From positions 1 to 35,548 of IMG/VR virus record IMGVR_UViG_3300035698_017582: a stretch of 35,548 nt of DNA; one strand, given 5' to 3'. This stretch comes from a virus. A program made the translations under genes and the position numbers. Positions within the stretch are counted from its first letter, which is position 1. Every line of letters begins with the position of its first letter. Positions 4,870 through 23,471 of this stretch are shown here, one piece after another. The notes under the pieces are model-generated. The model searched no databases, was not told where the DNA came from, and saw only the letters and a list, made by a program, of their open reading frames with translations.

Positions 4870-6885
4870 TCACCCCTTCAATCCAAACTTCTCAGCGCAA
4901 CGGCAGCGGATGACCTCGTCGGGATCACCATCGGGATCGCCGACGAACTTGAGGCCGTTGGAGTATTTCTGGCCCAGCTTTCGGGTCTCGCCGTTCATCG
5001 ATTCGTGGCTGTTGCGGACGTTCTCGTCGCCGGAGGTGATCCACGTGGCGGTCTCGACGACGCCGCTCTGCTGGGCGGCCTGATCCATGCCATAGCCGGA
5101 GGCGCTGTGGACCTCGGTCCAGGCGATGGCGATCGACCGTGTGCGCTCGTACTGCGCGTACTGCTCCCGGATTCGCTTGGCGATCTGGCCGTAGTCCTCG
5201 TCAGCCTCGCGGCCCTCTTCGATAACCCGGCGAAGGCCCTCGGCCGTCGTGCCCTTGATGAGATCTACGTGCTTGGCAACCTGGCGCTTGATGTAGGAGA
5301 TGACCGCCGGCTTGAACGGATCCCAGGCGATGTCTCGTGTGGAGCGCCCTCCGTTGAGGTCGTTGATCACCTCGTCGCCCATGGCCTCAACGACGTTACG
5401 CCAGATGGCGTCAAGCGTCTTAGACCAGCGCTTGGTGTCGATCTTCGGATCAAGATTGCCCTTCTCAACGGCCGCGGCGATCTCCTCGCCCTCGGCGCCG
5501 AAGATCTCCTTGATCAGGCTGCGAGCCTTGCGATCCCAGGCGGCCTTCTTGCTGGCAATCGTCCGCAGGTAGATCTCGTCATCGGATAGCCGCGTCGAGC
5601 GTCGGCCGCTGCGGTCATCGTCTCCAGACGGCTCGATTACCTGGCTTGACGGAATCATGTTGATCGGTCGCCAGCTCTGATTGGATCCGGCGAATGACGG
5701 CAGACCCAGCTCGAGCCGGGCGTTCGCATCGTCGAACGGCAACCCCGACTCGGTCAGGGCCTTCAGCATCTCGATCTTGTCCTTGAAGGCGGAGAGCACA
5801 CCAGGCGTCCCCGTCAGATCGAAGTCGAGGTAGACGTCGCCGACCTTGGGCGGCCAGCTCGTTCCGAACAGGGCGGCAAACGCTCCGTTGTAGTTCGAGC
5901 GTGAGGACCGCAGATAGGAGGAGACCGGGCCGTTCCATGCCGCGGCAATCGCCCACTCCTTGTTCTCGAACGTAGAACCGCTCTTGCCCATCGCGTCGGC
6001 GTGGAGGTGGAGGATCAGCCAGAGGGCATCCTCCCAGTGACCGAAGGACTTGATGAAGTCCATCTCCACTGGGGTCAGATTGAACGGCGAGTACTTGCCG
6101 GGATACGGCGAGATGAACATGCTCTTGGCGTTCTTGGGCCCGCTGAAGAACTTCTTCACCGACGCGATGAGCGCCTTGTGCTGCTTGTCGTCGAGGCCCA
6201 CCACTTGACCATGCAGCTCCGGCGTGAACATGCCACTCGACCAGATGCGGTTTCCCATCGCCGACTTGTTCGCGGTGAGCCCTGCGTTCATCGAGTCGAC
6301 GATCCGCGATGCCGCCTGGATGTTTGAGAGGCCGAAGATCTCGTTCGAAGGGTTGAAGTTCGTGTGATGGATGACCGCCTCGGGCTCGTACTCCCGCTCC
6401 CCCGGGGTTCCCTTCTGATACACCCAGTGGTCGAGGCGGCCGTTCGACTTCTTCTTGGCGCTCATCTTGTTCGGCTGTAGCCGACGGAGGAACGTCGAGG
6501 CGCCGCTCTGGATGATGAGCTGGTAGCTGTCCCCGGCGTAGATCCTGTCGATGACGATCGCGCCCTGCCCAGCATCCCACTCGGTGCCGAATCCGGGCTC
6601 GCGCACGACATCCATCAGCGGGTGATCGGGCTGATCTTCGATGCCGTCCTTGGTCTTCTTCCGGACCATCCACGGGGGCTGACTAACCCAGTCCGCGAGC
6701 TGCGTGGACCCGGCGTAGAGCGCGTAGCAGGACTTCAGCCCCTCGTCAATCGCCTTGGCCGCGTCCCAGTCGTTCCACTCGGTCATCCCGGCGAAGAAAC
6801 CGTCAGAGGGCGGCGCCTCCGTGGGATAACGGAAGGCCCGCATGGCAGTCGCTACTCGTTCCCTGAGCGCTACTCGTTCCTTCAA
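4870..6885 (-). CDS. Portal protein fused to a MuF/gp7-like head morphogenesis domain
   Basis: 671 residues, much longer than a usual HK97-type portal. Residues about 1-430 read as portal (SCYALYAGSTQLADWVSQPPWMV, DRIYAGDSYQLII, GLSNIQAASRIVDSMN, the NRIWSSGMFTPE and ALWLILHLHADAMG stretches). Residues about 470-671 carry a second domain ending in SIAIAWTEVHSASGYG...RNSHESMNGE...DPDEVIRCRCAEKFG, the pattern of the Mu F / SPP1 gp7 minor head protein. The start is TTG 6885 with AGGAGGG just upstream; the first 35 bases hold two copies of the 12-bp repeat motif, translated as ERVA twice. ATG 6843 is an alternative start. Confidence 0.88.
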   Translation of the reverse strand: MKERVALRERVATAMRAFRYPTEAPPSDGFFAGMTEWNDWDAAKAIDEGLKSCYALYAGSTQLADWVSQPPWMVRKKTKDGIEDQPDHPLMDVVREPGFGTEWDAGQGAIVIDRIYAGDSYQLIIQSGASTFLRRLQPNKMSAKKKSNGRLDHWVYQKGTPGEREYEPEAVIHHTNFNPSNEIFGLSNIQAASRIVDSMNAGLTANKSAMGNRIWSSGMFTPELHGQVVGLDDKQHKALIASVKKFFSGPKNAKSMFISPYPGKYSPFNLTPVEMDFIKSFGHWEDALWLILHLHADAMGKSGSTFENKEWAIAAAWNGPVSSYLRSSRSNYNGAFAALFGTSWPPKVGDVYLDFDLTGTPGVLSAFKDKIEMLKALTESGLPFDDANARLELGLPSFAGSNQSWRPINMIPSSQVIEPSGDDDRSGRRSTRLSDDEIYLRTIASKKAAWDRKARSLIKEIFGAEGEEIAAAVEKGNLDPKIDTKRWSKTLDAIWRNVVEAMGDEVINDLNGGRSTRDIAWDPFKPAVISYIKRQVAKHVDLIKGTTAEGLRRVIEEGREADEDYGQIAKRIREQYAQYERTRSIAIAWTEVHSASGYGMDQAAQQSGVVETATWITSGDENVRNSHESMNGETRKLGQKYSNGLKFVGDPDGDPDEVIRCRCAEKFGLKG
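6851..6880 (-). promoter_or_regulatory. Two copies of the 12-bp AGTAGC motif at the portal start
   Basis: GGAACGAGTAGC (minus strand) occurs at 6851-6862 and again at 6869-6880, 18 bases apart, immediately after the TTG start of the portal gene. These belong to the nine-site family described in the findings. They could be protein-binding sites in DNA or RNA. Confidence 0.5.
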
Positions 6886-21879: not shown

Positions 21880-22373
21880 CTACACCTCCTCTTCGGTTTC
21901 TGCTGCGATCTGCTTCTTCAGCTTGGTGACGCGGCCTTCTGCGTTGCGCCGGCGGAGCTCGATGTGTCTGCACGAACGACCAGGACTTTGATGCCATACG
22001 AAGCGAGCAGTCGTGCCTGTCGCTCGCGTTGGGATTCTTCCGCCCGCTGTTCCAGGTCTCTCTCCTCAGCGACTCTCCTGCGCAGCTCTTCGCGGCGCGC
22101 CCCCACAAGCTCATGGAAATCGACTTGCCACTGGCCGAGGTGTAGCCAGCCATACCGCTCCGTCCACCCTCGCTGCCCCGCCACCACGCCATAGACTTCC
22201 ACGGCGTCCTCGTTTAAGCACAAGTTGCTTCTTCCATTTGGGATCGCTTCTTCGCCTTCTGGCAGCACTTGAATGTGGAATATCTTCCCGCGTGCATGTT
22301 GACTCGAAACGAGATAGAGCCTTCCGTACCGGCCGGTCTCAAACAACTCTGCATATTCTCGCGCGCCGAACAT
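21880..22373 (-). pseudogene. Unknown coiled-coil protein, apparently -1 frameshifted near its end
   Basis: The frame from ATG 22373 (GAAGGAGGGG upstream) encodes a 151-residue product to 21918. Residues 1-95 are beta-rich (RGKIFHIQVLPEGEEA, WTERYGWLHLGQWQVDFHEL), then a charged helix follows. After GIKVLVVRAD the frame degenerates to SSSAGATQ..., whereas the -1 frame continues as a helix (HIELRRRNAEGRVTKLKKQI AAE...) to a stop at 21880, just ahead of the next gene. No start codon is seen in the -1 frame. A disabled gene, a sequence error or programmed shifting are all possible. Confidence 0.6.
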
Positions 22374-22391
22374 CGCCCCTCCTTCGTATCT

Positions 22392-22454
22392 TCAGGTCAA
22401 GCGCCGGCACGGCCCAAAGCCGGGCTCGAAACGTGGGTGCATTTCAGGTTGCAT
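22392..22454 (-). CDS. Possible 20-residue leader peptide
   Basis: ATG 22454 follows AAAGGAGG with ten bases between, and the frame (MQPEMHPRFEPGFGPCRRLT) ends shortly before the ribosome site of the coiled-coil gene. It could be a translated leader. Its size means it may also be chance. Confidence 0.3.
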   Translation of the reverse strand: MQPEMHPRFEPGFGPCRRLT

Positions 22455-22729
22455 GTGATAGGTGCCTCCTTTCGTGGTTTTGGGCCGCTGGTCGGCGGGG
22501 CGGGATTCGAACCCGCGCGGCGGGCAAGACCGCTCCGGTGATATTGGGGCTGGCTGAGACGCCCGTTGTACCCGCCGAAGAAGGGCGGGGGCTGCTGCAC
22601 CCCCGCCCGGTCGGAAAGCAAGGAGGCTCTCGTACCTAGCGAGCACACGATCGCGAGGATGAATCCGGCCGGAGTCCGGGGGGACTCGGGATCTCGGGTT
22701 GTCCTCTCGATCGGCGCCCACTTCAGCAT
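22397..22729 (-). CDS. Doubtful 110-residue reading frame across the RNA elements
   Basis: ATG 22729 has a good site (GAGGTGAGAG). The first 45 residues (MLKWAPIERTTRDPESPRTP, GFILAIVCSLGTRASLL) are coding-like, but from residue 47 on the frame runs through the 22583-22608 hairpin, the tRNA-like element and the leader peptide, giving sequence of the kind typical of translated tRNA genes. A short product may be made; the full length is unlikely to be meaningful. Confidence 0.25.
   Translation of the reverse strand: MLKWAPIERTTRDPESPRTPAGFILAIVCSLGTRASLLSDRAGVQQPPPFFGGYNGRLSQPQYHRSGLARRAGSNPAPPTSGPKPRKEAPITCNLKCTHVSSPALGRAGA
22489..22577 (-). tRNA. tRNA-like element with CCA end, non-canonical 5' half
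   Basis: The minus strand has a 7-bp acceptor stem, CGGCGGG (22577-22571) with CCCGCCG (22499-22493), an adjacent perfect T-arm (GCGGG-TTCGAAT-CCCGC, 22516-22500), discriminator A and an encoded CCA (22491-22489). C1-G72 and A73 recall proline tRNAs. Length (86 nt plus CCA) would fit a class II tRNA, but I cannot fold an acceptable D-arm or anticodon arm: no T33-containing 7-base loop on a 5-bp stem sits at the right place. Degenerate tRNA, tRNA mimic or an att-type fragment are options. Confidence 0.45.
22583..22608 (-). terminator. Strong GC hairpin upstream of the tRNA-like element
   Basis: Perfect 9-bp inverted repeat GGGCGGGGG / CCCCCGCCC with an 8-base loop. On the minus strand it is followed by TTCTTC, a poor U-tract, so termination would be weak; it may instead set the 5' end of the tRNA-like RNA, which starts six bases later. 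Confidence 0.4.
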
Positions 22730-22744
22730 CTCTCACCTCTGTAC

Positions 22745-22857
22745 GGGACGGCTGGCCGGTCTCGCACCGGCCTGGGGGTCTCTAGCGTCCAGGTCGTTGG
22801 ACTCCCCCGCATCACACTTGGGGTGCGTGTACGTTGTGCCCCAACCGCAGCCGTCCC
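22745..22857 (-). ncRNA. 113-nt structured RNA with four-way junction
   Basis: The gap after the YqaJ stop folds into a closed four-way junction: a 9-bp closing stem (GGGACGGCT 22745-22753 with AGCCGTCCC 22849-22857), a 7-bp hairpin (22754-22772), a 5+5-bp interrupted arm (GGGGG/CCCCC around GTCCA/TGGAC, 22774-22808) and a 6-bp arm (TTGGGG/CCCCAA, 22818-22844). All pairs are Watson-Crick, so the strand is not fixed by the sequence; co-transcription with neighbours favours minus. On minus, the 7-bp hairpin resembles a T-arm (GGTGCGAGACC). Confidence 0.55.
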
Positions 22858-22862
22858 ATTGC

Positions 22863-23471
22863 TCAGCATCGTTGTCTCTCAATCACTTCGCAGATCGCGT
22901 TGAGTTCCTCGGCGAACTTGACGAGTTCCTCTTCCAGCTTCTGGTGTAGCGCTTCGTCCGGCGTCACCCGAACGACAAGGAGCGGCATATTCGGGTAGTA
23001 CGACACGAAGTCACACCACAAGCGGCCTGTCACGAAGAGCTGCCCCTGGACTTGCACGATGTACGTCGACGGCACCTCGCCCTTGAGGAGGTACTCGATC
23101 GCCGTCTTGCCCATCGGGTTCTTCAGCTCGACCATGCCGTCATCGCCGACGAGGCCGTCCGGACTGCACCCCCAACGCCCGCCGTCTTCGATGCAGAAGC
23201 CGGCCTCGACTACCTCGGCCTCCGTCTGCATCGCGTAGACCGCGCGGCTCTCCGCTTCGCGCTCGATGCCCTCGAGCATCTTGTCCGACACGAACGTCGA
23301 CTCACTGACGCCGGAGATCCGTTCGGCAGCCAGCGTGTAGAGATAGCCCTCGCGCTGCTTGGATGCCGCCCCGTTGCCGGTGACGATCTTGGCGAACGAT
23401 GATGCCGTGGGGATGCCGCGTCGCACCTCCCACCATTCGTCCGACCGCTGGTCGCACGTGATGATCCTCAT
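22863..23471 (-). CDS. YqaJ/lambda-exonuclease family recombination nuclease
   Basis: 202 residues starting MRIITCDQRSDEWWEVRRGIPTA at ATG 23471 (ATGA overlap with the annealing protein). The family core is clear: Q.S.EW...R.GIPTASSFAKIVTG, then GIEREAESRAVYAMQTEAEVVE, CSPDGLVGDDGMVELKNP with the PDG and ELK metal-site residues, and IVQVQGQLFVTGRLWCDFVSY. It should be a 5'-3' double-strand DNA exonuclease that makes 3' tails for the annealing protein encoded next to it. Confidence 0.92.
   Translation of the reverse strand: MRIITCDQRSDEWWEVRRGIPTASSFAKIVTGNGAASKQREGYLYTLAAERISGVSESTFVSDKMLEGIEREAESRAVYAMQTEAEVVEAGFCIEDGGRWGCSPDGLVGDDGMVELKNPMGKTAIEYLLKGEVPSTYIVQVQGQLFVTGRLWCDFVSYYPNMPLLVVRVTPDEALHQKLEEELVKFAEELNAICEVIERQRC

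Follow-up and report, generated by a model that had tools for sequence, protein, structure and literature searches.

Phage noncoding RNAs other than tRNAs are poorly charted. Among RNAs with a tRNA-like shape, tmRNA has tRNA-like ends in which acceptor-like and T-like arms close around an enlarged insert. The Y RNA known as YrlA, in the excerpted description used here, is 90-150 nt long and combines a large 5'/3' stem with D-, T- and acceptor-like arms (PMC8394870). The window analysed in this study is a virus record of 35,548 nucleotides (35.5 kb) whose genes include those for head and tail, an exonuclease and a serine integrase, and it contains a 113-nt four-way junction at 22745-22857, in the gap after the exonuclease stop codon. 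This element, termed element A, is a genuine folded RNA, conserved in evolution and similar in outline to a tRNA.

The exonuclease gene lies at 22863-23471 on the minus strand (phrog_149, E 2e-34) and its stop codon is 5 nt upstream of element A on that strand. A first-pass annotation had delimited the element correctly at 22745-22857 and had placed it between recombination genes; the exonuclease is indeed upstream, but the serine integrase is found only ~2.6 kb downstream, separated from element A by small ORFs and a tRNA-like gene. The claim that the interval is far more structured than a spacer requires withstood a folding check, in which the energies were -65.2 kcal/mol for the plus strand (z -4.7) and -58.6 kcal/mol for the minus strand (z -3.5), neither of them equalled by any of 200 dinucleotide shuffles. 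The description of the pairing as entirely Watson-Crick was wrong, since the plus-strand MFE structure includes G-U pairs. The minus strand is likely to be the RNA, because the neighbouring genes are on that strand, because the G-U pairs of a homologue form on it and because, across a related family, alignment cells with G-U outnumber those with A-C by 16 to 6, which suggests that the RNA corresponds to the gene strand. The whole element (22745-22857, minus strand) is matched on this strand by a CM, designated R1, at 22747-22855.

Read along the minus strand, the closing, acceptor-like stem P1 has 10 bp, its 5' strand at 22848-22857 pairing with its 3' strand at 22745-22754. A linker of 3 nt, as against 2 nt in the related family, leads to the D-arm-like hairpin P2 (22818-22844), which has 6 bp of TTGGGG/CCCCAA and the 15-nt loop CACAACGTACACGCA. 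The variable arm P3 (22774-22808) consists of 5 bp of GGGGG/CCCCC closing an inner hairpin, and the T-arm-like hairpin P4 (22755-22771), made up of GCCGG, the 7-nt loop TGCGAGA and CCGGC, abuts P1. The T-like arm GGTGCGAGACC pointed out in the first-pass annotation is present, but its sequence belongs to the minus strand, that is, the likely RNA strand. In place of a closing stem of 9 bp with a 7-bp arm, the relatives favour 10 bp beside a 5-bp arm with a 7-nt loop.

Element A is not a tRNA. ARAGORN called neither a tRNA nor a tmRNA at element A in the window, the tRNA model of Rfam (RF00005) did not recognise it, and it has no TTCRANN T loop (TGCGAGA stands there), no anticodon arm and no CCA after P1. 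The term tRNA mimic is reasonable as a structural reading, and the other first-pass suggestions, an anti-defence decoy and an RNase-processed spacer, are hypotheses. Searched with Rfam 15, the window was without a match at gathering scores and had only weak ones up to E 5, and element A's DNA resembled nothing among sequenced phages and plasmids. A scan of 22300-23000 revealed neither a promoter-like site nor, on the minus strand, a terminator-like one. There is, in addition, a tRNA-like gene of 89 nt at 22489-22577 on the minus strand, 168 bases past element A along that strand, which ARAGORN calls as tRNA-Asp with anticodon atc and which has an 8 + 5 bp acceptor/T arm and an encoded CCA. It gives a tRNA-Sec match of sub-threshold score and its topology resembles tRNA-Sec; it is treated here as a neighbour of element A and not as the same class of RNA.

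Attempts to find homologues of element A through its neighbouring exonuclease were unsuccessful, as none of the 11 loci with related exonucleases (L002-L012) shows anything like element A after the gene. The route that led to a homologue was a set of 80 loci related to the DUF5131 protein of the record, among which blastn gave a lead of 26 bases in L035/L036. The resulting element, L035a, is a complete homologue in which the order of helices is kept and the closing stem is again followed by the linker CGG; it has the strings GGCTGCGG, GGGGCA and ACACGCACCCC in common with element A. The first-pass annotation had looked to homologues for retention of the stems, and here the outcome was divided, L035a keeping them while the exonuclease relatives carry no such element. 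When the 26 pairs of element A are compared with those of L035a, 16 are the same, one has a one-sided change, eight are double changes and one is broken. The double changes are spread over P1 (3 of 10 pairs, with one further pair broken), P2 (2 of 6, the loop keeping ACACGCA) and P3 (3 of 5); in P4 one of the five pairs goes from C-G to U-G and the loop reads TGGAAGA. L035a also folds best on its gene strand (z -2.4, as against -0.8 on the opposite strand). The phage that carries it has a terminase of another family than that of the window record, and the neighbours of L035a differ too.

The phage carrying L035a, the closest homologue of element A, was also the sole one of 39 records with a TROVE gene. 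This gene encodes a TROVE/Ro60-like protein of 435 aa (L380, 2078-3385, minus strand; phrog_850, RNA-binding), and just upstream of it is a 125-nt tRNA-like RNA (L339, 18527-18651, minus strand) with a score of 41 bits against RF00005 and a 65-nt insert in the anticodon region. Hairpins like GTGAAG..TACGG.TACTTC recur about three times at the locus and are possibly Ro-binding sites, and the TROVE gene with its tRNA-like RNA may be a phage Y RNA locus. Downstream of L035a there is another large RNA with multiple branches (L035, 11691-11853, plus strand), which has a closing stem of 12 bp and, at its 3' side, a T-arm-like hairpin.

A related family of phage RNAs emerged from a script that searched the collected loci for T-arm-like hairpins lying directly against the 3' strand of a closing stem and returned 21 matches, as against none in block-shuffled sequence; 13 of these had TTCRANN loops (ordinary tRNAs included) and eight had TGNRAGA. 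Two loci that surfaced in this way, L110 and L135, had originally been picked solely for carrying the T-arm sequence of element A, and they have the same P4 arm. They were found to have a second motif in common beside the closing stem, GCGTGGNNAGATGACACGC, with one variation. A scan of IMG/VR for this motif alone gave 43 loci, of which at least 10 had the closing stem and the T-arm-like hairpin, the latter mostly with the altered sequence GCCGG-GGCAGGA-CCGGC. Scanning IMG/VR for this hairpin alone then gave 73 loci with 75 pattern matches, and 34 of the 75 have P1 and a D-arm, features that are absent from the search pattern. Counted from the output, 25 of the 34 were new and nine were already known or duplicates; the other 41 matches are taken as chance or unresolved. 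The bare architecture of closing stem, D-like hairpin and 5 + 7 arm was unspecific as a search pattern, with 220 matches in 2.06 Mb of real sequence and 169 in shuffled sequence; ranked by the score of the closing stem, element A comes first among the matches (tied), which also include L035a and L039.

In a first alignment of 10 family sequences all eight P1 pairs were double-changed. In a CM-based alignment, for which 35 chosen loci were supplied and 31 phage members passed E 1e-4, the paired share of cells is 98.4%, double changes occur at 15 of the 18 pairs and the covariation is 0.658, as against 0.161 when shuffled and at most 0.152 with the partners slid, figures that are biased towards the structure because the alignment was fitted to it. 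P1 pairing in the loci of the hairpin scan was nevertheless visible ahead of any fitting. In outline, the family combines a long closing stem with a D-arm-like hairpin carrying the loop GCGAGATGA, a variable middle and the T-arm-like hairpin GCCGG-GGCAGGA-CCGGC; as in tRNA, this last hairpin consists of 5 bp with a 7-nt loop and lies directly against the closing stem. The loops GCGAGATGA and GGCAGGA are strongly conserved, whereas P1, with a total length of 8-17 bp in a list of 38 loci, keeps its pairing while its sequence drifts and has none conserved. The variable middle, in place of an anticodon arm, measured 46-130 nt in 29 of the 31 members, and 19 of these 29 have one dominant variable arm. 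Neither the T-loop of the family nor that of element A is canonical, and no conserved 3' CCA end was seen in the family loci examined.

At Rfam gathering scores no family was found at the element in 14 sources tried, 13 of them with family members or candidates, and the queries tried against 50,697 sequenced phage genomes gave no close match. Nor was the RNA found in the literature searched, including the portions consulted of PMC7790460, PMC7824862 and PMC8394870. The family, which is absent from Rfam 15, is therefore regarded as uncatalogued within Rfam 15 and the literature searched. It comprises about 40 loci, 31 from the alignment and ~11 others with E no higher than 1e-4. Loci of the L161 type, which have a D-arm-like string without the P1/T-arm frame, were excluded from it, as were the oversized tRNA-like RNAs of L014/L021, L034 and L094, three of which (L014, L034 and L094) R1 missed in whole records. 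The former, seen in L161, L162, L165-L169 and similar phage contigs, represent a separate conserved sequence with CGTGGGTAGATGACACG. The latter (L014, 5089-5228; L021, 4499-4638; L034, 11279-11405; L094, 1757-1899, minus strand) are 120-145 nt long with canonical TTCRANN T loops, and those of L014, L021 and L034 were not called as tRNAs by ARAGORN.

The relationship of element A to this family was examined with two models. R1 was built from 10 sequences that excluded the window but included L110 and L135, and it matched element A over its full length on the minus strand with 33.6 bits (E 5.1e-4 in 1.26 Mb); on the window's own record element A was the sole match at E 0.01, with E 1.4e-5. At E 0.01 or better R1 found nothing in 50 further DUF5131 records or in 50 control records. 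As 43 of these control records carry a T-arm sequence of element A's type (the remaining seven include three exonuclease records), the silence of R1 in them argues that the T arm alone is not the cause of the match. The match is nevertheless partly circular, since L110 and L135 had been found with the T-arm sequence of element A. A stricter model, R2, was built from 31 sequences none of which was found through element A. It finds L135 (66 bits) and L110 (48 bits) but misses element A, L035a and L017; even at a limit of E 5 it matches nothing in the window, and it likewise matches nothing in the window record at E 0.01. The likeness of the D region to the family is not significant for element A, with 152 of 1000 shuffles as good, as against 8 of 1000 for L035a. 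Element A has a P1 that abuts a 5-bp arm with a 7-nt loop, with covariation (against L035a, together with the R1 match), but in its D-arm it carries CACAACGTACACGCA instead of the family loop GCGAGATGA. Because it is matched by R1 and missed by R2, and in view of the D-region result, element A would be either a divergent member of the family or a sister to it, linked through L110 and L135.

Family members usually occur once per record; R1 matched 24 of 27 records, two with a second, partial match. A same-strand ORF ends no more than 40 nt upstream at 21 of 46 loci, and the next possible start is close downstream of the element in the window and at L194, L183, L015 and L135. The flanking genes include head genes, methyltransferases, SbcC-like genes, a terminase and an integrase, and neighbours so diverse indicate that the RNA is not the regulator of one gene. 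Most of 46 loci scanned with ARAGORN yielded no tRNA. Some members are closely associated with tRNA genes. The element of L244 starts at the base after a tRNA-Thr gene and ends 3 nt before a tRNA-Ala gene, tRNA genes directly adjoin the element in L257 and L224, and L110, like the window, has a tRNA-like neighbour, in its case just upstream. The tRNA resemblance of the four-way junction proposed in the first pass is supported both by compensatory change in the homologue and by a family of the same outline with members beside tRNA genes. Other RNAs were seen at these loci. A tRNA-like sequence (ARAGORN tRNA-???) is nested in the variable middle of the family member of L244 (2092-2161, plus strand), and L178, which also holds a family member, has ribozymes of the type-P1 twister class at 2812-2874 and of the twister-sister class at 5163-5234 (both plus strand).

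Searches for a dedicated partner protein were negative. DUF5131/Gp37-Gp68 was considered since the first relatives carried it, and it was over the cut-off in 3 of 40 carrier and 2 of 40 control records. With blastp on 28 carrier and 16 control records no protein family occurred in most carriers, the maximum being 7 of 28. The most widely shared were integrase (7 carriers and no controls), RecE and RecT (6 and none for each), with methyltransferases and terminase also among them. These are ordinary phage genes, and a dedicated partner protein was rejected.

Usually one copy per record, diverse neighbours, an ORF closely upstream and sites beside tRNA genes are together reminiscent of the behaviour of a tRNA gene. 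The favoured reading, to which roughly even chances are given, is that element A is a free-standing, tRNA-shaped phage RNA gene that would be excised from mRNA and engage a host tRNA-binding factor. Its scaffold is P1 abutting the T-arm-like hairpin, together with the D-arm-like hairpin and an enlarged variable arm that replaces the anticodon arm. Most likely, element A would be co-transcribed with the neighbouring genes, the RNA would be freed by host tRNA-processing nucleases, as for phage tRNAs, and it would then act in trans as a stable tRNA mimic occupying a host tRNA-binding protein. Possible targets include a tRNA-attacking defence nuclease, a tRNA-modifying enzyme and PNPase. A broader and rather doubtful proposal is that the family is a widespread, uncatalogued class of phage tRNA mimics, in which the tRNA-like acceptor/T/D frame would present a variable arm and either inhibit host tRNA-directed immunity or RNA decay or act as a decoy for them, with element A a divergent form. 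A covariation-backed family of about 40 loci provides a testable object, a small RNA gene in unrelated phage positions that is sometimes packed against tRNA genes.

The main rival to the tRNA-mimic reading, a serious one though on the unlikely side, is a cis-acting processing or stability element. Element A would in that case be punctuation in a polycistronic message, a processing site for RNase P, RNase III or RNase E or a stabilising stem, which cuts or protects the exonuclease mRNA and sets the expression level of the gene downstream; the RNA released would have no function of its own. Its position 5 nt past a stop codon, with the next possible start not far beyond, as at the four other loci named above, is consistent with this, as are the drift of P1 sequence under maintained pairing and the variety of neighbours, which is what would be expected of a generic device. 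However, the conservation of the loops GCGAGATGA and GGCAGGA goes beyond the need of a processing stem, some members adjoin tRNA genes instead of lying between coding genes, and there is usually one copy per record.

A Y RNA of the YrlA kind, that is a tRNA-mimicking tether of the Ro60/Rsr ring to PNPase, is improbable. The size and arms agree with the description of YrlA, as far as the part consulted goes (PMC8394870), and the phage of L035a encodes a TROVE protein with the 125-nt tRNA-like RNA just upstream of its gene, but that RNA is not L035a. Furthermore, a TROVE/Rsr gene was found in only the one of 39 records searched and not in that of the window (which is possibly a fragment, a host Rsr being possible), P1, the stem to which Rsr would bind, is not conserved in sequence, and the Y RNA models of Rfam, YrlA among them, do not match element A at gathering scores or up to E 5.

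It is very improbable that element A is a decayed or odd tRNA gene retained by ancestry only; the tRNA outline, the tRNA-like gene nearby and the canonical TTCAAAT T loop of the relative L017 would fit, but covariation indicates selection on non-tRNA features as well, and ARAGORN makes no call on an element that has neither an anticodon arm nor a CCA. Hardly more credible is a DNA-level element such as an attachment site, origin or cruciform, for although the plus strand folds slightly better and the record has an integrase gene, the G-U pairs of the homologue on the minus strand and the 16 to 6 ratio in the family favour an RNA, many members are oriented like the upstream gene, and the only integrase among the flanking genes named is that of L182.

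Compared with tmRNA, element A is far shorter, with no tag reading frame called and no tmRNA found by ARAGORN, but both have acceptor-like and T-like arms that enclose an enlarged middle. YrlA, by the portion of its description consulted (PMC8394870), is of the same length class and has a long end-joining stem with D- and T-like arms, whereas the end stem of the family has no conserved sequence, the loops are not those of tRNA and there is no Rfam match. The family differs from tRNA in a closing stem of 8-17 bp instead of 7, in a variable middle of 46-130 nt without an anticodon arm, in its non-canonical T loop and in having no CCA end. It is like tRNA in the T-arm-like hairpin of 5 bp and 7 nt that abuts the closing stem, in the short linker to a D-arm-like hairpin and in the location of some of its members, which adjoin phage tRNA genes.
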